A stretch of 64,000 bases of DNA from an uncultured Balneola sp. (GTDB taxonomy: Bacteria; Bacteroidota; Rhodothermia; Balneolales; Balneolaceae): assembly GCA_913058495.1 (NCBI GenBank), contig CAJXQC010000003.1, positions 124,001 through 188,000 of the forward strand, in the 5' to 3' direction. Positions 52,746 through 63,956 of this stretch are shown piece after piece. A model generated the notes under the pieces. The model was not told the origin of the DNA and did no database searches. It was given only the letters and a program-made list of their open reading frames with translations. Made by a program: the position numbers and the translations under genes. The stretch's first letter is position 1. Each line of letters begins with the position of its first letter.

Positions 52746-54032
52746 CTATTGGAAAAGAAAGCTTTTAAATTCCTTAAAACTACCGCTCATAGTTATACTT
52801 TTTTTTGGCTTACTCATTAGCTCAGAGACAAAATCAGGTTGAGATAGAGTTCTTTCTAATGCTTTTTCAACGGTAGATATAAACTTGCAATAATGAGCTG
52901 TCTCTAAAAATATTCCGTTCTCATCAGCAGTCATTATATCTTTTAAGGCTTGATAGCCAATGGCACCATGTGGATCTGTAATATATGAGTTTTGATCAAA
53001 GCAGCTTTTGATGGTTTCGAGAGTTTGAGCGTCATCTATAGAAAAACCTTTAACTATGTTTTGTAATTCCGAAAGTTTTCCATCTACAAGTTCCATTAGT
53101 CTGGGATAGTTGCTTGGGTCACTGACGTCCATAGCATTCGACAAAGTGGGAATAGTTTTTAATGGCTGATATTCCTCAGTAGTTAAAAATCTGGGAATCA
53201 CATCATTTTGATTTGATGCTGCTATAAAATGTTTTACCGGCAATCCCATTCTATGAGCTAATATTCCAGCAGATAAATTACCATAGTTACCTGAAGGCAC
53301 AGAGAACACCAGCTTTTCCCGATTTTGTAACTGCTTAAATGCTTCAAAATAATAGATAGATTGAGGTAACCAGCGAGCTATATTTATTGAGTTTGCAGAA
53401 CTGAGATTTAGAGTTTCATTTAGTTCTGTATCTAAAAAAGCTTGTTTTACCATATTTTGGCAATCATCAAAAGTTCCATCTATTTCAACAGCCGTAATAT
53501 TTTTACCAAGAGTGGTTAACTGCTTTTCCTGTAATTCACTAACCTTACCACTTGGATATAAAATTACAACGTTGACACCATCAACATCATAAAACCCCGA
53601 GGCTACGGCTCCTCCGGTATCGCCTGAGGTTGCAACAAGAATGGTGACTTCCTGATTATGAGATTCATTGAAATAAGCCAAACAACGAGCTAAAAAACGA
53701 GCTCCTATGTCTTTAAAGGCATAAGTTGGTCCATGAAATAATTCTAGACTATAAATTGCATTTTCAACTTTCTTTAAAGGAATATCAAAGCTAAATGCTT
53801 CTTCTACAATCTCCTTAAGTTTGTTGTTCGGAATACTTTCCTGAGTAAAAGGAGAAAGTATCTTGTACCCAATTTCTGGAAAAGTGTATAAACCAAGATT
53901 AGTAATGAAATCACTTTCTAAAGTTGGAATTTTTTCAGGAAAATAAAGTCCTCGGTCTGAAGGAAGGCTATGAATGACTGCTTCTTTAAAAGAGAGTGGA
54001 GCTACTTTTTTATTAGTCGAATAGAACTTCAT
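52746..54032 (-). CDS. thrC: Threonine synthase
   Basis: A 428-aa PLP enzyme converting O-phospho-L-homoserine to L-threonine. LELFHGPTYAFKDIGARFLAR contains the PLP Lys, TSGDTGGAVASGFY the substrate phosphate loop, and SANSINIARWLPQSIYYF and SVPSGNYGNLSAGIL other signatures. The N-terminal MKFYSTNKKVAPLSFKEAV is the usual two-strand start. It overlaps thrB by four bases (ATGA type), is the last gene of the eight-gene operon and has no clear terminator after it. Confidence 0.96.
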   Translation of the reverse strand: MKFYSTNKKVAPLSFKEAVIHSLPSDRGLYFPEKIPTLESDFITNLGLYTFPEIGYKILSPFTQESIPNNKLKEIVEEAFSFDIPLKKVENAIYSLELFHGPTYAFKDIGARFLARCLAYFNESHNQEVTILVATSGDTGGAVASGFYDVDGVNVVILYPSGKVSELQEKQLTTLGKNITAVEIDGTFDDCQNMVKQAFLDTELNETLNLSSANSINIARWLPQSIYYFEAFKQLQNREKLVFSVPSGNYGNLSAGILAHRMGLPVKHFIAASNQNDVIPRFLTTEEYQPLKTIPTLSNAMDVSDPSNYPRLMELVDGKLSELQNIVKGFSIDDAQTLETIKSCFDQNSYITDPHGAIGYQALKDIMTADENGIFLETAHYCKFISTVEKALERTLSQPDFVSELMSKPKKSITMSGSFKEFKSFLFQ

Positions 54033-54949
54033 ACAATTTTACAACCCTCTGAGTTAATACCTGAAATATGGATCTTTACAGAAATGTCAATTGAAGTGTA
54101 GAATTCTTGAATTTTTTCAGAGCATGATGTTAAACTATTTTCATCTGTGAATAAGGAAAACATCGATGGACCCGAACCCGAAATATTAAAACCAACAGAT
54201 CCGGATTTGGATGCTATCTCTTTAACTTTCTCGTAACCGGGGATAAGATTTTTTCGAACAGGTTCGGCAATTCTGTCTGTGATTGCTCTGTTCAGTAATT
54301 CAAAATCTTTGGTATGCAAAGCATGAATAACTGCAGCAACATTTCCCCATTGCTCTCTGGCATCTTTTATGGAAAGGGTTACAGGAAGAATCTGTTTTGC
54401 TTCCACAGTTTTGATCTGGACATCAGGAAATATGATCAACACGCGTAGTGCTTCTAAATTTTTAATGCTGAAAATATCGAGGGGTTCATAGCTTCTTACT
54501 GCTTGAAAGCCTCCAAGAAGTGAGGGAGCTACATTATCTGCATGATAGCATTTTGAGGCTAAGGCTTCACCTTCTAAAGCATAGGGGAGAAGTTCTTTTG
54601 TTGTGCATGGATACCCTAACAATGCATTGACAGCAAAAACGGAACCTGCCGCACTTGAAGCACTGCTTCCGAGTCCACTTCCGGGACGAAACATTTTTTC
54701 AATAGTAATGTCGAAGCCTTGAGTGGAGCCCAATTTAGTCAAAAACGATTGAATGGCCACTCCGGCTACATTTTCTGAAGGTTCAACTGGTAATTCAGCA
54801 CCTATAGAGGGTAGAAAATTTAGTTTCTGATCTTTCCTTTTTGAAACAGTAATAATATCACCAAGTTCTTCAATAGCGAATCCAAAAGTATCATACCCGG
54901 GACCGACGTTAGCTACTGAAGCAGGTGCAAAAACTTTGATTTCATTCAT
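54029..54949 (-). CDS. thrB: Homoserine kinase
   Basis: A 306-aa GHMP kinase that phosphorylates L-homoserine. FAPASVANVGPGYDTFGFAI, the FRPGSGLGSSASSAAGSVFA ATP loop (GHMP motif 2) and SVGFNISGSGPSMFSLF (motif 3) are all present. It overlaps thrC by four bases and thrA by one, so translation is tightly coupled in the order thrA, thrB, thrC. Confidence 0.96.
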   Translation of the reverse strand: MNEIKVFAPASVANVGPGYDTFGFAIEELGDIITVSKRKDQKLNFLPSIGAELPVEPSENVAGVAIQSFLTKLGSTQGFDITIEKMFRPGSGLGSSASSAAGSVFAVNALLGYPCTTKELLPYALEGEALASKCYHADNVAPSLLGGFQAVRSYEPLDIFSIKNLEALRVLIIFPDVQIKTVEAKQILPVTLSIKDAREQWGNVAAVIHALHTKDFELLNRAITDRIAEPVRKNLIPGYEKVKEIASKSGSVGFNISGSGPSMFSLFTDENSLTSCSEKIQEFYTSIDISVKIHISGINSEGCKIV

Positions 54950-57381
54950 TATAAATCAGATTGGGAAATCCTGAGTACATCAGCAAAAATTCCTGAAGCT
55001 GTTACATCAGCTCCTGCTCCTGCACCCTTAATTACCATAGGTTGTTCTTTGTATCTGTTGGTGTAAAATAAAACGATATTATCTTTACCATCTAAATTAT
55101 AAAAAGGATGACTGGATTCAATAGCTTTTAGTTTTACCGAACCCTTTCCATTTTTGTATGTTGCAACAACTTTGAGCCGGGTATTATTTGATTGGGCATT
55201 TTTGTACAGATTTAAGAAATGTTCTTCTTCTTTTTCAACCTGTGCGTAAAAATCATCAAGCGATGAAGTTTTGAGGCAACTTTCAGGTAAAAATGATTCG
55301 AGGACAATGTCTTCATACTCAAATTGATAGCCACTTTCCCTGATCAAGATCAGAATTTTTCGTTTTACATCTGAGCCAAACAGGTCGAGCCTGGGATCCG
55401 GTTCTGTGTATCCCAGTTTTTTTGCTTTTTTAATGACATCCACAAACTTTGCAGATCCATCGTACTCGTTGAACAGATAAACTAAAGTTCCTGAAAGCAC
55501 AGCTTCAATTTGATTTACCTGATCACCACTCCTAACGAGGTCATTCAGCGTTGATAAGACAGGCAATCCTGCACAGACATTAGTTTCAAAATAGAATTTA
55601 CTCCCAAATTTTTTACTGGATGCTTTTAGAGCAAGATAATCAGAGTAAGATCCGGTAGCGGCAATCTTATTTGGGGTTACAACCGAAATGCTTTTCTGCA
55701 GGATCTGTTGATACAATGAAGCTATACTTTCAGAGGCTGTTATATCAATAAAAATGCTGTTTCGGAGATTCATAGAATACATGTTATCGAGAAACTCATT
55801 TTCCGAATATGTATCATCGGTATTCAGTGCAGATTCCCACTTAGATAATGGTATTCCATTTTTATTGAACTTCATTTTTCTGGAATTGGCAACACCAATA
55901 ATTTTAATATCGAGTTGATGATTCACTTTCAAAAATGAGAATTGCTGGGTCAGCTGATCAATAAAGGCTTTTCCAACATTTCCTGTGCCAATGATAAACA
56001 GGTTTACACGTCGCGTAACAAATTGGAAAAAGCTTTCATGGAGTACATTAAGAGCTTTATCCAGATCGTTTTGATGAATTACTGCCGAGATATTTCTTTC
56101 AGATGAACCCTGAGCAATTGCTTTAATGCTTACACCATTTTTTCCAAGTACATTAAACATTTGGCCACTTACACCAACCTGGTTTCTCATGTTCGATCCA
56201 ACGAGCGCAAGAATAGATAAATCACTTTCAACTTCTATGGGATTGATCTTTTTGGTTCGAATTGATTCACTGAATTCATCAGTTAGTACCAGTGCAGCTT
56301 TTTTAGCGTCTTTGACATCAATGGAAACACTTATTGAATGTTCTGAACTGGATTGAGTAATAAGGATCACATTAATCTTTGCAAGAGAAAGAGCTTTAAA
56401 TAATCGGGAAGAAAATCGGGGAATACCTACCATACTGCTACCACTTAGTGTAACCAGTGACACAGATTTTATACTCGAAATACCTCGGATCAGTTCTTTG
56501 TTTTCATCCCATTCTTTGGTTATAAGCGTACCATGATGATCAGGGTTAAAAGTATTCTTTATCCTGATAGGAATGCCTTTACTAAGAGCAGGATGGATAC
56601 TAGGTGGATATATAACTTTTGCCCCAAAATGAGAGAGCTCCATGGCTTCTTCATAAGAAACATGTTCAATGACTTTTGAATTCTTTACGATTCTCGGATC
56701 TGCTGTCATTAATCCGTCTACATCAGTCCATATCTCAAATTCATCAACATCCAACGCAGCGGCAAGTATTGCAGCGGTGTAATCTGATCCGCCTCTTCCC
56801 AAAGTTGTTGTTACTGAATCGTTATTGGAAGCTATAAAACCGGGAAAGAGATTTATTCCTTTAAATGATTTCTGAGCTTCCTTGATCCGTTTATTTGTCT
56901 CAGTGAATTCTACATTGGCATTTCCAAAATCATCATCAGTCTTTATAATAAAACGACTATCAAATAATTGAATGTCCTGCCCCTGAGCTTTAAAGAACTC
57001 GTTTATGATCAGTGAAGAAAGACGTTCTCCTATACTTAAAATATAATCAAAACTACGAGGGGTGAGTTCTTTAATAAGTTCAACACCTTTGCAAATTTCC
57101 TGTAGCTCAATAATAATTTGATGGAAATTTTCATCCGGTTTCTTTCCGGTCAGGTTTAGGTACAATTCTTTATGCAGAGTTACTAATTTCGATAACAAAA
57201 TTTCATAACGATCATCTGCCTTGGAGGCCAACTCGCCAATTTTTACTAATTGATCAGTTACACCTCCTACGGCTGAAGTTACGATAACAACCTGCTGTTC
57301 TTGCTTGCTAATAATTTCAGCAACTTTTCTGATTGCATTTTCGGAGCCAACAGATGTTCCTCCAAACTTTATTATTTTCAT
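54949..57381 (-). CDS. thrA: Bifunctional aspartokinase / homoserine dehydrogenase
   Basis: An 810-aa fusion that catalyses the first and third steps from aspartate to homoserine. The kinase begins MKIIKFGGTSVGSENAI and has FPGFIASNNDSVTTTLGRGGSDYTAAI and EIWTDVDGLMTADPR. Two ACT modules follow at about 310-450. The dehydrogenase domain starts LFIIGTGNVGKAFIDQL (about 460) and includes SGTLVYLFNEYDG and the late SDVKRKILILIRESGY. The usual allosteric effector of this type is threonine. The start ATG at 57381 gives the standard N-terminus; it begins 34 bases after ilvA ends. Confidence 0.96.
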   Translation of the reverse strand: MKIIKFGGTSVGSENAIRKVAEIISKQEQQVVIVTSAVGGVTDQLVKIGELASKADDRYEILLSKLVTLHKELYLNLTGKKPDENFHQIIIELQEICKGVELIKELTPRSFDYILSIGERLSSLIINEFFKAQGQDIQLFDSRFIIKTDDDFGNANVEFTETNKRIKEAQKSFKGINLFPGFIASNNDSVTTTLGRGGSDYTAAILAAALDVDEFEIWTDVDGLMTADPRIVKNSKVIEHVSYEEAMELSHFGAKVIYPPSIHPALSKGIPIRIKNTFNPDHHGTLITKEWDENKELIRGISSIKSVSLVTLSGSSMVGIPRFSSRLFKALSLAKINVILITQSSSEHSISVSIDVKDAKKAALVLTDEFSESIRTKKINPIEVESDLSILALVGSNMRNQVGVSGQMFNVLGKNGVSIKAIAQGSSERNISAVIHQNDLDKALNVLHESFFQFVTRRVNLFIIGTGNVGKAFIDQLTQQFSFLKVNHQLDIKIIGVANSRKMKFNKNGIPLSKWESALNTDDTYSENEFLDNMYSMNLRNSIFIDITASESIASLYQQILQKSISVVTPNKIAATGSYSDYLALKASSKKFGSKFYFETNVCAGLPVLSTLNDLVRSGDQVNQIEAVLSGTLVYLFNEYDGSAKFVDVIKKAKKLGYTEPDPRLDLFGSDVKRKILILIRESGYQFEYEDIVLESFLPESCLKTSSLDDFYAQVEKEEEHFLNLYKNAQSNNTRLKVVATYKNGKGSVKLKAIESSHPFYNLDGKDNIVLFYTNRYKEQPMVIKGAGAGADVTASGIFADVLRISQSDL

Positions 57382-57415: not shown

Positions 57416-58672
57416 TCAGATCATATAGCTGAACAGATCCGGTTTTTTATTAAGGTATTCGCCAAAGAAACTTTTCAATTTCATTTTCTCTATCAAGGGT
57501 TCAAGGTCTTCTTTTGATTGTAGTTCTATACCAACCAAAGCAGGCCCTCTTTCTCTGGATGTTTTTTTTGTGTACTCGAAGTGAACTATATCATCATTAT
57601 GGCCTAATACTTCTTCCACGAATTCTTTCAGGGCGCCTGCTCTTTGCGGAAAACGAACGATGAAATAGTGCATTAGACCTTCATAAAGCAGTGATCGTTC
57701 GCGTATTTCTTCAGTTCTGGTAATATCGTTGTTACCACCCGAAAGGATACACACTACATTTTTATCCTTTATTTCATCTTTAAATTTATCCAGAACAGCA
57801 ACAGAAAGTGCACCGGCAGGTTCCAGTACAATACCATTTTCGTTGTACATTTGAATAATCGTTGAGCATAATTTTCCTTCATCTACTAAGGAAATTTCGT
57901 CCATATTATCTTTGCAAATAGGAAAATTCAGTTCGCCTACTTTTTTTACAGAAGCGCCATCAACGAATTTATCAATTTCTCTTAGTTCTTGTATTTGTCC
58001 ATGCTTAAAAGCGTTAAACATGGCAGGCGCTCCTGTTGGTTCAACACCGATAATTTTTGTTTCAGGACTGAGAGCCTTAAACACACTTGATACTCCTGAT
58101 GAAAGCCCGCCACCTCCAACAGGAATAAATAGATAATCAATTTTAAAGTCTGTTTGATCGCAAATTTCCAAGCCAACAGTTGCTTGTCCTTCAATTACTA
58201 GTTCATCATTAAAGGGATGAACGAAGATCCCATTATTTTTTTTACAGAATGTTTTTGCCAATAATGAGGAATCATCAAAAGTATCTCCCTCAATAATCAC
58301 CTCAACCATTTCTTTTCCAAACATTTTCACCTGCCGGATCTTTTGCTTAGGAGTGGTTGCAGGCATAAATATTATACCTTTGATTCCGAGTTTATAGCAG
58401 GATAGTGCAACACCCTGAGCATGATTACCGGCGCTTGCACAAACAACACTTCGATCAGTGTCTTTTATTGAGTTTATCTTATTAAATGCACCTCGGATTT
58501 TATAGGAACGCACTATTTGGGCGTCTTCCCGCTTTAAATAAATATTCGAATTATATCTTTCTGAAAGAGAGAAGCTTTGTTGTACAGGAGTTTTATATAC
58601 AACAGATTCTAATGTCTCAGCGGCTTTTTCGATATTTTTTAAAGCAGGGTAGTAGGTTGTTTTAACTTTCAC
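57416..58672 (-). CDS. ilvA: Threonine ammonia-lyase (threonine deaminase), single regulatory domain
   Basis: A 418-aa PLP enzyme giving 2-oxobutanoate for isoleucine. The PLP Lys is in LKREDAQIVRSYKIRGAFNKI, with SAGNHAQGVALSC, PVGGGGLSSGVSS and CILSGGNND further on. The C-terminal domain (about 330-418) is one ACT-like module, HYFIVRFPQRAGALKEFVEEVL, so this is the shorter biosynthetic form. It sits between ilvC and thrA and so links the threonine and isoleucine halves of the operon. Catabolic TdcB would lack this C-terminal domain. Confidence 0.94.
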   Translation of the reverse strand: MKVKTTYYPALKNIEKAAETLESVVYKTPVQQSFSLSERYNSNIYLKREDAQIVRSYKIRGAFNKINSIKDTDRSVVCASAGNHAQGVALSCYKLGIKGIIFMPATTPKQKIRQVKMFGKEMVEVIIEGDTFDDSSLLAKTFCKKNNGIFVHPFNDELVIEGQATVGLEICDQTDFKIDYLFIPVGGGGLSSGVSSVFKALSPETKIIGVEPTGAPAMFNAFKHGQIQELREIDKFVDGASVKKVGELNFPICKDNMDEISLVDEGKLCSTIIQMYNENGIVLEPAGALSVAVLDKFKDEIKDKNVVCILSGGNNDITRTEEIRERSLLYEGLMHYFIVRFPQRAGALKEFVEEVLGHNDDIVHFEYTKKTSRERGPALVGIELQSKEDLEPLIEKMKLKSFFGEYLNKKPDLFSYMI

Positions 58673-58702: not shown

Positions 58703-59749
58703 TCAATTATTCTCAGGACGCAGCGTTCTAACCGTTGATCCTGCTTGCCACATTTCAGACTCTCTAAGCTCTTTGAGTTCTTCTTCAAGTTTTTCTCTGT
58801 AGTCTTCCTGACTATTGGAATCAATTGATCTTTGGGCTTCATTACCGGCAGCTACTTCAGAGTAAAGCTCTTCAAAAACAGGTTTTGATGCATCCCGGAA
58901 TTTCTTCCACCAGTCCAGAGCTCCTCTTTGTGCTGTGGTTGAACAATTAGCGTACATCCAATCCATTCCATTTTCTGCAACTAAAGGCATTAATGATTGT
59001 GTTAACTCTTCAACGGTTTCGTTAAAAGCTTCAGAAGGGGAGTGTCCATTAGATCGGAGTACTTCATATTGAGCAGCAAAAATACCTTGAATAGCTCCCA
59101 TCAAAGTACCACGTTCACCGGTCAGATCACTAAATACTTCTTTTCTGAAATCGGTTTGAAACAGATATCCTGATCCAACGCCAATTCCTAGTGCAGATAC
59201 TTTTTCCTTTGCTTTACCGGTGGCATCCTGAAAGATGGCATAGCTGGAATTGAGGCCTCTGCCTTCAAGAAACATTCTTCTTAGCGAAGTACCAGATCCT
59301 TTTGGAGCCACCAGAATTACATCTACGTCATCAGGAGGGATGATACCTGTCCGTTCTTTGTAAGTAATTCCGAAACCATGTGAAAAGTATAACGCTTTCC
59401 CTTTTGTCAAATGCTTTTTAACTGTGGGCCAAAGAGAGATCTGTCCGGCATCGGATAATAAGTATTGTAGAATAGTGCCTTTTTCACAGGCTTCTTCGAT
59501 CTCAAAAAGTGTTTCGCCCGGAATCCATCCGTCGTTTTTAGCTTTATCCCATGTTTTAGAATTTTTTCTTTGCCCAACAATTACATTGAATCCATTGTCC
59601 CTGAGATTCAAAGCTTGTCCGGGGCCCTGAACTCCATATCCGATTACAGCTATAGTTTCATTTTTTAAAACCTCTTGTGCTTTTTTCAGAGGAAATTCTT
59701 CTCTGGTTATAACGTGTTCTTCAACTCCACCAAAATTTAAAAGTGCCAT
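58703..59749 (-). CDS. ilvC: Ketol-acid reductoisomerase
   Basis: A 348-aa NADPH- and magnesium-dependent enzyme that isomerises and reduces acetolactate or acetohydroxybutyrate. The N-terminal Rossmann motif is AVIGYGVQGPGQALNLRD, then VILVAPKGSGTSLRRMF, and FSDLTGERGTLMGAIQGIFAAQYE holds the metal-binding Asp and Glu. The length is that of class I with a short acidic extension. The cofactor-loop GQRKNSKTW carries Arg and Ser, consistent with NADPH preference. Gap to ilvN is 41 bases. Confidence 0.96.
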   Translation of the reverse strand: MALLNFGGVEEHVITREEFPLKKAQEVLKNETIAVIGYGVQGPGQALNLRDNGFNVIVGQRKNSKTWDKAKNDGWIPGETLFEIEEACEKGTILQYLLSDAGQISLWPTVKKHLTKGKALYFSHGFGITYKERTGIIPPDDVDVILVAPKGSGTSLRRMFLEGRGLNSSYAIFQDATGKAKEKVSALGIGVGSGYLFQTDFRKEVFSDLTGERGTLMGAIQGIFAAQYEVLRSNGHSPSEAFNETVEELTQSLMPLVAENGMDWMYANCSTTAQRGALDWWKKFRDASKPVFEELYSEVAAGNEAQRSIDSNSQEDYREKLEEELKELRESEMWQAGSTVRTLRPENN

Positions 59750-59790: not shown

Positions 59791-60321
59791 TCAATTCTTC
59801 GATAAAATTTGTTGAACGTATTCTCCTATTCCATGCTCTTCTCTGGATACTGCAATACGTCCGGATCGCACAAACTCATTAATGCCAAATGGTATCAAAT
59901 CGTCAAATAATGCTTTGGTTTCTCTACGGAAACCGGCCTTTTCGATAACCAGGAAGTCCTTTTCAATGGTTAAAAAGCGTGCATTATGTTGTCTTACAAT
60001 CCGCTCTACTTCGATACCATTTGTCAATGATTTGCTTGGGATCTTATAAAGAGCTACTTCTTGCTGAACCACTTCTTTGTTTTTATAGTAATCTGCTTTT
60101 AATACTTCAATTTGTTTTTCTATCTGCTTAACTATTTTTTCAACAGCTTCTTCAGTTTCGGTTACTGCAATAGTAAACCTGTGAATTCCTTCTTTTTCGC
60201 TTTCGGAAGCGGTAATACTTTCAATATTCACTTTCCGCTTGGTAAAGATGATGGTAATGCGATGGAGTAATCCAACATGATTTTCTGTATACGCTGTTAT
60301 CGTAAATTCTTCTTTTTCCAT
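59791..60321 (-). CDS. ilvN: Acetolactate synthase, small regulatory subunit
   Basis: A 176-aa regulatory subunit with an N-terminal ACT domain (ITAYTENHVGLLHRITIIFTKRKVNIESITAS) that binds valine, and a C-terminal dimerisation region that includes EVERIVRQHNARFLTIEKDF. It increases the activity and confers feedback inhibition on IlvB. The chosen ATG at 60321 is preceded by GGAG at a spacing of eight. A GTG three codons upstream overlaps the ilvB stop in GTGA and could also be used. Order ilvB-ilvN is coupled. Confidence 0.94.
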   Translation of the reverse strand: MEKEEFTITAYTENHVGLLHRITIIFTKRKVNIESITASESEKEGIHRFTIAVTETEEAVEKIVKQIEKQIEVLKADYYKNKEVVQQEVALYKIPSKSLTNGIEVERIVRQHNARFLTIEKDFLVIEKAGFRRETKALFDDLIPFGINEFVRSGRIAVSREEHGIGEYVQQILSKN

Positions 60322-60326
60322 TCTTG

Positions 60327-62066
60327 TCACTCCAATCTTATTTCAGAAACTCCGGCACCACTTGGTACCATAGGGAATACATTGTTTTCTTTTCCTACCA
60401 TTACTTCCAGAAAATAGGCTCCGTCAAAATTCAAAAACTCTTCGATAGCTTTTTCCAGTTTATCTCTTTCCGTTACTTTTTTGGTTGGGATATAGTAGCC
60501 CTTTACAATAGTTTGAAAATCAGGGTTTATCATTTCAGTAGATGAATATCTTTTCTCAAAAAAGAGCTGCTGCCACTGTCTTACCATTCCCAGAAACTCA
60601 TTATTAAGCAGCAGTATTTTTACTTTTGCTTTGGTTTGATAGATAGTAGCAAGCTCCTGAATGGTCATTTGAAAACCTCCATCACCAATTACTGCAATAA
60701 CAGTTCTATCAGGGGCACCAAGTTTAGCTCCTAAAGCGGCGGGCAACCCAAAACCCATTGTCCCCAAACCTCCTGATGTAATATTGCTTTTAGTTTTTGA
60801 GAATTTAGAATATCTGCAAGCCACCATTTGATGTTGACCTACATCGGACACAATTATCGCATTTCCTTGTGTATGCTTATTAATAATATTGATGACCTCA
60901 CCCATAGAGAGAGTTTCAGAATCAGGGTTTAGCTCTTTATCTATTACTTTCTCACGCTCTATTTTTGCGCAATCGATAAATCTTTGAAGCCAGTTTTCGT
61001 GGCTGTTTGGCTTAACAAGTTTAAGTAAGTGCGTAATCGTTTCTTTGGCATCACCTAATACAGGGATATCTGCTTTAACATTTTTGTTTATTTCAGCAGG
61101 ATCGATTTCCAGATGTATAACTTTAGCCTGTTTAGCATATTTACTCAGATTTCCGGTTACTCTGTCATCAAATCTCATTCCGATAGCAATAAGTACATCG
61201 CATTCGTTTGTAAGTAGATTAGGTCCATAATTACCATGCATGCCTAACATTCCGACATTTAGAGGATGGTCAGTTTCCAGTGCTGATAACCCAAGAATAG
61301 TCCAGGCAGAAGGAATCCCTGTTTTTTCTACAAGATTTTTGAACTCTTTCTCCGCGTTTGCAAGGATAACTCCCTGTCCAAATAAAATAAGTGGACGTTT
61401 TGCATTATTGATCTCTGAAGCAGCTTCCTCAATGCTGGAAGGATCTATTTCAGGTTTGGGTACATAACTGCGGATTTTCTTGAAACAAGTGTAGCTATAG
61501 TCAAATTTCTGAAACTGGGCATCTTTGGTTATATCAATTAAAACGGGGCCTGGTCTTCCGGAGCTGGCAATATAAAATGCTTTAGCAAGTACTTCCGGAA
61601 TTTCATTTGCATCAGTTACTTGATAATTCCATTTAGTAACCGGCATTGAAATTCCAATTACATCGGTTTCTTGAAATGCATCGCTTCCTAAGAGTGAAGA
61701 AGGAACCTGACCTGTTATACAAACGAGTGGAGTGGAATCAATTTGAGCATCAGCAAGACCTGTAATCAAATTCGTAGCACCCGGGCCTGATGTAGCTAGA
61801 CAAACTCCCGGTTTTGTTGTTACTCTTGCAAAGCCCTGAGCTGCATGAATAGCACCTTGTTCATGTCGTGCTAAAACGTGTTGTATACGATCCTGCTCAT
61901 CATAAAGAGCATCATAAATAGGCATTATTGCGCCACCGGGATAACCAAATGCGACTTCGACCTGTTCTTCAATTAAAATTTTTACTACAGCTTCGGCACC
62001 ATTGATAAACTGAGTATTAATTTTTTTGTTCTGTTCAGTAACTATTTGTGATTCCATAATTTTCAT
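60327..62066 (-). CDS. ilvB: Acetolactate synthase, large catalytic subunit
   Basis: A 579-aa thiamine-diphosphate enzyme joining pyruvate with pyruvate or 2-oxobutanoate. VAFGYPGGAIMPIYDALYD and LARHEQGAIHAAQGFARV contain the ThDP-contact Glu; SGPGATNLITGLADAQIDSTP and AIGMRFDDRVTGN are typical FAD-domain segments; and IGDGGFQMTIQELATIYQ is the ThDP-binding motif GDG-(N)26-type. It serves both isoleucine and valine synthesis. The start is ATG at 62066 (a TTG lies one codon upstream), 14 bases after ilvD ends. Confidence 0.96.
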   Translation of the reverse strand: MKIMESQIVTEQNKKINTQFINGAEAVVKILIEEQVEVAFGYPGGAIMPIYDALYDEQDRIQHVLARHEQGAIHAAQGFARVTTKPGVCLATSGPGATNLITGLADAQIDSTPLVCITGQVPSSLLGSDAFQETDVIGISMPVTKWNYQVTDANEIPEVLAKAFYIASSGRPGPVLIDITKDAQFQKFDYSYTCFKKIRSYVPKPEIDPSSIEEAASEINNAKRPLILFGQGVILANAEKEFKNLVEKTGIPSAWTILGLSALETDHPLNVGMLGMHGNYGPNLLTNECDVLIAIGMRFDDRVTGNLSKYAKQAKVIHLEIDPAEINKNVKADIPVLGDAKETITHLLKLVKPNSHENWLQRFIDCAKIEREKVIDKELNPDSETLSMGEVINIINKHTQGNAIIVSDVGQHQMVACRYSKFSKTKSNITSGGLGTMGFGLPAALGAKLGAPDRTVIAVIGDGGFQMTIQELATIYQTKAKVKILLLNNEFLGMVRQWQQLFFEKRYSSTEMINPDFQTIVKGYYIPTKKVTERDKLEKAIEEFLNFDGAYFLEVMVGKENNVFPMVPSGAGVSEIRLE

Positions 62067-62080
62067 CAATGTTTGAGAAA

Positions 62081-63760
62081 TTAAAATTCATCAGTAACAC
62101 AGCCTTGTGATGCCGAAGCAACAGTGCGTGCATATTTATAAAGCTGTCCACTTTTTTCTTTCATTGGAGGCGCTGTCCACTCAGCCTTTCGTTCCTTTAG
62201 CTCTTCATCAGTCAATTGAACATTAATTGTATTTTTGACAGCGTCAATACTGATTACATCTCCATCTTTAACCAAAGCTATGACTCCTCCGGTTTGGGCT
62301 TCAGGAGTAATATGACCAACTACAAATCCATGAGAGCCCCCTGAGAATCTTCCATCTGTTATCAAAGCAACTTCTTTACCTAGTCCGGCTCCCATTATAG
62401 CAGAAGTTGGCTTGAGCATTTCGGGCATTCCCGGACCACCCTTGGGGCCTACATATCTTATCACAACAACGTCTCCCTTTTGAACAAGACCATCCCGAAT
62501 TCCTGCATTTGCTTCTTCTTCACTGTTAAAAACTCTTGCTGCCCCTTCAAATATTAGACCTTCTTTTCCTGTGATCTTGGCTACAGAACCTTCACTGGCT
62601 AGGTTTCCAAATAAGATCTGAATGTGTCCGTTTTCCTTTATGGGATCTTCAATTGGTTTGATGACTTTTTGATCATTTGACAGAGGAGCTACTTCAGCAA
62701 GATTTTCGGATAAAGTTTTTCCGGTCACTGTTAAGCAATCACCATGAAGCATATTTTTATCAAGCATATATTTCATTACTGCAGGAACGCCACCTATTTC
62801 GTGAAGATCTTCCATCACATAAGATCCGCTTGGTTTTAGATCAGCCAGAAAAGGTGTTTCATCACTGATTTTTTGAAAGTCAGAAATCGTAAAATCTAAT
62901 TGAGCAGCTTTTGCAATAGCCAGTAAATGCAAAACGGCATTTGTTGAACCTCCTAATACAGTTACAACTCGGAAAGCATTCTCTAATGATTTTTTTGAAA
63001 GTATATCCAGTGGTTTTATATCATTTTCAATGAGGTTTTTTAAATGATATCCTGCTTCTTCGCATTCAATAACTTTGCCGCTATTCGTAGCAGGAATCGA
63101 AGAGTTGTAGGGAAGAGCCAAGCCAAGCGCTTCAATAGCAGATGACATTGTGTTGGCAGTATACATCCCGCCACAAGCTCCGGCTCCGGGACAAGCATTT
63201 TTGATTATTTTTTTAAACTCATTTTCATCAATTTTGCCAGCTACTTTTTGTCCCCAGGATTCAAATGCAGAAACAACATCTAATTTTTTTCCATTATGAT
63301 GTCCGGCCGCGATAGTCCCTCCATACAACATTATTGAAGGCCTGTTAACTCTAAGCATTGCCATAACAGCACCCGGCATATTTTTATCACAACCTACAAT
63401 CGCGATAAATCCATCGTAGCTCATGCCTTTGACTACAGATTCCATGGAGTCAGCAATCAGATCACGAGAAGGTAAAGAATACCGCATTCCGGGAGTTCCC
63501 ATAGAAATACCATCACTGATACCAATAGTATTAAAGATCAAAGGGGTGAGATCTGCTTTTTGAGCTCCTCTTTTTACATGTACCGCCAGATCATTTAGGT
63601 GCATATTGCAAGGATTTCCTTCATAACCCGTACTGGCGATTCCGATCATTGGCTTATTCAGGTCTTCGTCATTTAAACCAATAGCATGTAACATTGCTTG
63701 AGCAGCTGGTTGTGAACCATCTTGGGTAATCAGTTTACTAAACTTATTTAATTCAGCCAT
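62081..63760 (-). CDS. ilvD: Dihydroxy-acid dehydratase
   Basis: A 559-aa iron-sulfur enzyme dehydrating dihydroxy acids in isoleucine and valine synthesis. Cluster-ligand cysteines appear in [27 protein letters not shown] and [19 protein letters not shown]. The C-terminal [19 protein letters not shown] motif is typical of the family. The ATG at 63760 is the normal start; 16 bases before it ends the attenuator's T-tract. It is the first structural gene of the operon. Confidence 0.96.
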
Positions 63761-63776: not shown

Positions 63777-63807
63777 AAAAAAAAAGCCTTCCGGATTAGG
63801 GAAGGCT
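63777..63807 (-). terminator. Attenuator terminator of the ilv-thr operon
   Basis: On the minus strand AGCCTTCC (63807-63800) pairs perfectly with GGAAGGCT (63792-63785) around CTAATCC, followed by nine T residues (to 63777). It lies between the leader ORF and ilvD, 17 bases from the ilvD start, where a terminator would normally make no sense unless regulated. Confidence 0.93.
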
Positions 63808-63880
63808 GTTTTGTAGAGTATTAAGATCACACATTACTTCCCCGGTCGGTATTTGGTACCAATGACATTAATAATGACCG
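63798..63880 (-). promoter_or_regulatory. Alternative RNA pairings of the ilv-thr attenuator
   Basis: Three overlapping pairings are possible. Pause (1:2) pairs CGGTC (63880-63876, in the Thr/Val codons) with GACCG (63847-63843). Antiterminator (2:3) pairs GGGGAAG (63843-63837, the last leader codons) with CTTCCCT (63804-63798), which is the left arm of the terminator. Terminator (3:4) is the 8-bp stem. Stalling at Ile, Val or Thr codons would free GGGGAAG, and a ribosome at the stop codon would cover it. The logic is that of trp- and ilv-type attenuators; pairing is read from sequence and function inferred. Confidence 0.75.
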
Positions 63881-63902
63881 TGATAATGGTGCGTGTAATC
63901 AT
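63834..63902 (-). CDS. ilvL: ilv-thr operon leader peptide (6 Ile, 2 Val, 4 Thr of 22)
   Basis: A 22-codon ORF with ATG at 63902-63900 and TAA at 63836-63834, starting MITRTIITVIINVIG and ending TKYRPGK. Of 22 residues, six are Ile, two Val and four Thr, none Leu. These are exactly the amino acids made by the downstream genes. Leu is absent, and no leu genes are present in the operon. It is unrelated in sequence to the enterobacterial ilvL and thrL peptides but equivalent in design. The Ile-Ile and surrounding codons are placed so that a stalled ribosome would release the antiterminator strand. Confidence 0.88.
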   Translation of the reverse strand: MITRTIITVIINVIGTKYRPGK

Positions 63903-63924
63903 TCTTGAATTAGTTTTGTTGGAG

Positions 63925-63956
63925 CAAAGAAATGTCTAATTCATTCAAATATCAAA
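63925..63956 (-). promoter_or_regulatory. Predicted Bacteroidota-type promoter of the ilv-thr operon
   Basis: On the minus strand TTTG (63956-63953) is followed after 20 bases by TTTCTTTG (63932-63925), one change from TAnnTTTG. The leader ATG starts 22 bases further on, leaving room for a short untranslated region. Confidence 0.5.

Follow-up and report, generated by a model that had tools for sequence, protein, structure and literature searches.

The question raised by this locus is whether the short leader ahead of a fused ilv-thr operon is a ribosome-mediated attenuator and, if so, which amino acids it would report. The window, i.e., the whole stretch of 64,000 nucleotides that was analysed, carries on its minus strand an operon of the order ilvDBNCA-thrABC, in which the identity of the genes was assigned via NCBIfam models:

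62081-63760, minus strand: ilvD, dihydroxy-acid dehydratase (TIGR00110, 750 bits)
60327-62069, minus strand: ilvB, acetolactate synthase large subunit (TIGR00118)
59791-60330, minus strand: ilvN, acetolactate synthase small subunit (TIGR00119)
58703-59749, minus strand: ilvC, ketol-acid reductoisomerase (TIGR00465)
57416-58672, minus strand: ilvA, threonine ammonia-lyase (TIGR02079)
54949-57381, minus strand: thrA, bifunctional aspartate kinase/homoserine dehydrogenase (NF006959)
54029-54949, minus strand: thrB, homoserine kinase (TIGR00191)
52746-54032, minus strand: thrC, threonine synthase (TIGR00260)

The gap between ilvA and thrA measures 34 bp, and no separate Thr leader is found there. 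The region ahead of ilvD, read in the direction of the operon, comprises the following features:

63925-63956, minus strand: putative Bacteroidota-type promoter, TTTG (63956-63953), a 20 nt spacer and TTTCTTTG (63932-63925), proposed from the TTTG of relatives and the likeness to TAnnTTTG
63902-63834, minus strand: leader ORF MITRTIITVIINVIGTKYRPGK, ATG to TAA, read from the sequence
63876-63880, minus strand: segment 1, CGGTC, left arm of the pause stem (codons 8-9), pairing with 63843-63847, with covariation on alignment A1
63848-63860, minus strand: inner hairpin GGTA-CCAAA-TACC (GGTA 63860-63857, TACC 63851-63848), which extends the pause stem, seen from relatives
63843-63847, minus strand: right arm of the pause stem, GACCG, from the sequence and relatives
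63837-63843, minus strand: segment 2, GGGGAAG, left antiterminator arm in the last codons ahead of the stop, from the sequence, shuffles and the same position in relatives
63798-63804, minus strand: segment 3, CTTCCCT, right antiterminator arm within the left terminator arm and loop, from the sequence and shuffles
63777-63807, minus strand: intrinsic terminator, AGCCTTCC-CTAATCC-GGAAGGCT, an 8-bp stem (63807-63785) with a T run, from the sequence

Direct reading of the minus strand bears out the leader ORF of the original prediction (63834-63902), in which 12 of 22 codons specify Ile, Val or Thr (Ile six, Thr four, Val two) and none specifies Leu. Such an enrichment in codons for the regulated amino acids is a mark of classical attenuators, and all of these codons stand at codon 16 or earlier, the last being Thr16. 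A content of at least 50% Ile/Val/Thr occurs in 3 of the 457 ATG ORFs of 15-30 aa in the 64-kb window, and among these three the focal leader alone precedes a terminator and an amino-acid operon. Genes resembling leuA, leuC, leuD and leuB lie nearby, beyond the window, upstream of ilvD and in the opposite orientation (L002:14251-18535). The idea that Leu was dropped from the focal leader owing to an attenuator of the leu operon's own was rejected, as the gap upstream of these genes has no evident Leu-rich leader, terminator or attenuator.

The TTTCTTTG box resembles TAnnTTTG, which the available text of PMC9723704 gives as the -7 promoter box of flavobacteria. In 21 of 28 relatives, a TTTG precedes the leader by approximately 17-35 nt, versus 16% of background windows. 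By sequence comparison, the promoter-like element is thus conserved and placed upstream of the leader rather than downstream, and a transcript start about 20 nt ahead of the leader ATG is expected.

An intrinsic terminator stands between the leader and the first gene. The 8-bp stem and the nine Ts (63785-63777, with the last stem base counted among them) are as predicted, while the spacing to the ilvD ATG (63760), originally given as 17, was counted as 16 bases. Among the terminator-like stems on the minus strand between 52 and 64 kb, the focal stem is tied for the longest and its T run is by far the longest. The antiterminator GGGGAAG/CTTCCCT, 7 bp with one G-U pair, takes the left terminator arm and part of the loop, and its pairing was matched by 4 of 300 shuffles. 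The sequence, the shuffles and the folding model described below agree on a pairing that competes for the left terminator arm and that a ribosome at the stop codon would mask. The pause stem CGGTC/GACCG overlaps the flank of the GGGG, the last G of GACCG being the first G of segment 2, and the inner stem GGTA/TACC is an addition to the elements named earlier. All elements of a classical attenuator, the antiterminator sharing the left terminator arm and the overlapping pause stem included, were therefore recovered in the sequence at the places foreseen, and both pairings are conserved in relatives, the pause stem with covariation. The whole leader RNA folds mildly better than shuffles (z -1.9).

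Based on this arrangement, we consider the locus, with a probability of roughly 0.86, to be a classical ribosome-mediated attenuator that would report charged tRNA-Ile, tRNA-Val and tRNA-Thr to one fused operon. In the mechanism that we infer, including leader translation, ribosome stalling, their kinetics, the site of transcript initiation and the effect of each amino acid, a ribosome supplied with plentiful Ile, Val and Thr would pass codon 17, reach the stop and cover GGGGAAG, which would leave the left terminator arm free, so that the terminator would form and RNA polymerase would halt ahead of ilvD. If any of the three amino acids were scarce, the ribosome would stall on the Ile/Val/Thr codons (positions 2-16), GGGGAAG would pair with CTTCCCT ahead of the synthesis of the right terminator arm and ilvDBNCA-thrABC would be transcribed. 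With no ribosome loaded, segment 2 would have its flank sequestered in the pause stem, and the terminator would form.

The switch was modelled by folding the RNA minus its right terminator arm (segment 4, not yet made), with a ribosome footprint placed codon by codon. The predicted antiterminator probability was 0.96-0.98 for ribosomes at codons 5-14, fell to 0.25 at Gly15, and was 0.93 at codon 16, 0.84 at codon 17 and 0.00 from codon 18 through the stop; in the model, the switch is sharp and falls between codons 17 and 18, just past Thr16. For the complete RNA, the terminator probability was 0.99 at every ribosome position. As the terminator wins in the complete RNA regardless of the ribosome, the switch must be kinetic, a dependence common to every classical attenuator. 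The 1:2 pause stem competes with the antiterminator, though in the model it has only a moderate effect without a ribosome: the antiterminator is already favoured in the unfinished RNA (0.78), so that the protective role of the pause stem would be weaker than in textbook cases.

The placement in Balneolota suggested earlier holds: in the classification used, the focal family, Balneolaceae, also includes L074 (a Balneolaceae bacterium) and L076 (an Aliifodinibius MAG), identified through thrA matches that agree in coordinates and scores with those of G092 and G067. In the alignment of 20 leaders from this family, the reading frame is kept throughout, the VIG--YRPGK end is mostly conserved and the terminator hardly varies. 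In these relatives, the pause stem is 92% paired and three of its nine pairs changed on both sides; its covariation score was reached in none of 500 shuffles, and the pairing was mostly lost when the partner strand was slid. The inner hairpin is paired in 95% of cells and has one pair in which both bases changed; in the terminator, pairing reaches 100%. The near invariance of the terminator within the family leaves little covariation signal; column-wise covariation was dropped for this element and a per-locus antiterminator test across the phylum was used in its place. The test comprised 54 leaders upstream of ilvD, from the family and beyond. The antiterminator strand is usually situated at the leader stop codon or in its immediate vicinity, and the terminator arms that it complements differ widely (CTTCC, GTATC, CCATTC, GCCTCC, CTTTCTCAC). 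The pairing was better than 95% of shuffles in 35 of the 54 leaders and better than 99% in 23, although these loci are not all independent.

The leader layout recurs ahead of ilvD or ilvE across the phylum, and the antiterminator sequence changes together with the terminator arm. The ORF and the stems are thus conserved within the family and beyond. The suggestion that such leaders are less often described in this lineage needs correction. They are not rare here, as a large part of the phylum has them ahead of its ilv operons, and the available text of PMC9723704 already notes leader-peptide attenuation in Flavobacterium. Leader-peptide attenuation of ilv operons is widespread in Bacteroidota, taken in the broad sense, and its antiterminators change sequence fast yet keep their place at the stop codon; operon content may therefore help to predict leader specificity, and the reverse. 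Tandem ilv leaders, two or three in number, are also present at L243, L244, L255, L259 and L272.

Within Balneolaceae, thrABC lies behind ilv only in G000, G001, G003, G006 and G007 (with ilvA) and in G004 (without ilvA). It is missing from this place in G002, which belongs to the same genus, and in the remaining genera examined. An example of the leaders of unfused relatives is MLSTVISLVIIRVIGITYRPGKALC. Its codon 8 is Leu, as in most unfused genomes that share this leader backbone (TTG/CTG), whereas all six fused genomes have Thr there (ACG/ACA). The leaders of fused genomes hold two to five Thr codons (two only in the fused species G001) and those of unfused genomes 0-2. In the fused G004 the leader has diverged and its Thr codons stand partly at other positions. 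Leu codons are absent from the focal leader and from four of five fused relatives. These close relatives with and without the fusion amount to a natural experiment, in which one leader backbone is retained and mainly the amino acids that it reads differ.

A second fusion, ilvE-ilvDBNCA-thrABC, was found in G391, which belongs to another family. Two tandem leaders, MKRVSTIQTIITIVVTPQ and MKQLNSIITVVIITGPSG, precede its ilvE, each with a terminator and an antiterminator (L212:7680-8110); considered together they are Thr-rich, and they are unlike the Balneolaceae leader. Operons in which thr genes follow ilv and lack a separate Thr leader occur in one clade of genus g1 and in G391. In other genomes with neighbouring ilv and thr genes (G159, G274, G243 and G447), thrA still has its own Thr leader, placed between it and ilv; such ilv leaders as were identified in these genomes are not Thr-rich.

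The share of Thr codons was compared with one value per genus or group, 51 in all; at a few loci (e.g., L013/L122) wrong or spurious automatic leader picks had been replaced or excluded by hand. The three fused groups without an internal Thr leader occupy ranks 1-3 of 51, with a Thr share of 0.29-0.33; in the remaining groups, the share averages 0.07 and does not exceed 0.22. With the fused groups counted as two lineages, this ranking has a probability of 0.0008; G391 is the only independent lineage, as this test and that of the Leu share were made after the first fused clade had been seen. Likewise post hoc, the Leu share is 0.40 where leu genes lie downstream of ilv versus 0.17 otherwise (P 0.007). 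The claim that codon content is tuned to the products of the operon is supported by the comparison of fused and unfused relatives, and the leader apparently had its specificity adjusted to the newly joined genes, with Thr codons accompanying the thr fusion.

As a separate observation, in G035, where the ilv operon runs into leuA, the leader upstream of ilvD is dominated by Leu (MLNNLLLINVILLVLISKPR, seven Leu) and has a long antiterminator (L128 / L019). Leu-rich leaders are likewise seen in G182, G210 and G281, which have leu genes downstream.

The same comparisons bear on other explanations of the locus. A working attenuator could sense Ile and Val only, with neutral Thr codons and thr expression that tracks the Ile/Val supply. 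Such a reading would be in line with the excess of Ile over Thr codons in the focal leader (six versus four), with ACN being one base away from ATN, with the 0-2 Thr codons already present in unfused leaders and with fused G001 having just two. However, codon 8 is Thr in every fused genome, even the diverged G004, and the change from the Leu of most relatives to Thr needs two base changes there; moreover, the unrelated leader pair of G391, which precedes a separately built ilv-thr operon, is Thr-rich as well. Sensing of Ile and Val only is thus rather unlikely in our view.

A same-strand gene ends upstream, and the hairpin might be the ordinary terminator of that transcript, with the ilvD promoter behind it and the short ORF a coincidence. 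We find this hardly credible, as the T run leaves just 16 nt before the start codon, the ORF, the antiterminator and the upstream promoter-like box are conserved jointly across genera, and the leader content tracks the operon content. It is also highly unlikely that transcription attenuation plays no part and that the leader acts instead on ilvD translation, on RNA stability or via Rho. The closeness of ilvD would fit such action, and Rho-linked leaders do exist in other systems, but most relatives combine a strong intrinsic terminator, followed by a long T run, with an antiterminator that overlaps it, and in several of them the terminator lies 100-280 nt ahead of the first gene, too far to mask the gene start.

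A different leader precedes the standalone or internal thrA genes of many relatives. It has a Thr/Ile-rich frame with the stop codon within the loop of a short hairpin:

L138:1382-1476, L176:1383-1477, L184:1376-1470, L188:1370-1464, L223:9454-9548 and 21 other loci (alignment A2): thrA leaders with a stop-codon hairpin

Examples of the hairpin are ACCCC-TTAG-GGGGT, ATCCGC-TAA-AGCGGAT and ACGGG-GTAA-CCCGT. It is followed by CATAT and often by a second small hairpin, without a T run, 84-127 nt ahead of thrA. The stem sequence varies while the pairing is kept, with 24 of 26 related loci at P < 0.05 against shuffled flanks; per-sequence shuffles were used here, as MAFFT put two registers in the same columns of A2. 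The Rfam scan of six of these loci gave no match for this leader, which may represent a separate class of Thr sensor.

The origin of the fused operon was approached with gene trees. In the ilvD+ilvB tree, the fused genomes form one clade inside the family (support 100/99), while in the thrA tree the thrA of this clade groups with G391, outside the family's own thrA clade (100/99); the ilvA of the fused clade is likewise set apart from the usual ilvA of the family. Judged by these positions, the acquired thrABC is foreign to Balneolaceae; the donor is uncertain owing to the long branch of G391. Block transfer of the whole ilv-thr operon between G391 and g1 was rejected, since the affinity of thrA to G391 is at odds with that of ilvD+ilvB, which track the family, and since the leaders of the two are unlike each other. 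The simplest reading is that foreign thrABC, and ilvA separately or together with it, joined the resident ilv operon and that the leader was then re-tuned. We lean towards a fuller account in which foreign ilvA+thrABC joined a resident ilvDBNC and the Ile/Val/Leu leader lost Leu from its control zone and gained Thr, replacing the separate thrA Thr leader of most relatives, with an independent repetition in another family. Between ilvA and thrA of G391 (L209:9250-9900) there are also about four copies of a direct repeat of approximately 168 bp; every copy contains a CCCTGAACTTGTTTCAGGG hairpin and a short stretch that resembles an ORF (MANIILVTIGVIINVRKAVKTP...).

Among known systems, the focal leader shares with E. 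coli thrL (thrABC) a Thr/Ile-rich leader peptide, a terminator ahead of the operon and mutually exclusive pairing, whereas it adds Val codons, its operon includes ilvDBNCA and it belongs to a different phylum. The Rfam scan of the focal leader at gathering scores gave no match; the Thr_leader model RF00506 aligns over its full length with 28 bits (E 0.0019), below its gathering score of 55, so that the leader is not a member, and Rfam was set aside as a source of identity with just this sub-threshold match. In ilvL (ilvGMEDA) and leuL of enterobacteria, branched-chain codons in the leader and ribosome stalling control a terminator ahead of the ilv or leu genes. The focal leader has such codons and such a terminator in common with them, but ilvL reads Ile, Val and Leu, whereas the focal leader carries Thr and lacks Leu among its control codons, and the operons of ilvL and leuL have no thr genes, in contrast to the thrABC found here. 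Since the operon yields threonine as an end product and isoleucine is made from threonine, a single Ile/Val/Thr sensor would be a simple logic for the branched pathway.

The survey of amino-acid operon attenuators by Vitreschak et al. 2004 (FEMS Microbiol Lett 234:357) reportedly describes leader codons that match the operon, and the focal leader follows the same principle. That survey is cited in PMC2965389, where leader peptides of other groups outside Proteobacteria are discussed. Within the same phylum, leader-peptide attenuation ahead of amino-acid operons, as here, is noted for Flavobacterium psychrophilum in the available text of PMC9723704, and candidate leader-like sORFs of Bacteroides thetaiotaomicron in that of PMC7366714. 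The main text of PMC9723704 names neither ilv nor threonine, and the available text of both papers describes no ilv-thr fusion or change of specificity. The literature search, with most subscription papers outside its reach, did not turn up any fused ilv-thr operon with a described Ile/Val/Thr leader. Compared with these systems, the mechanism appears to be one already reported in Bacteroidota, and its amino-acid tuning appears to be new.
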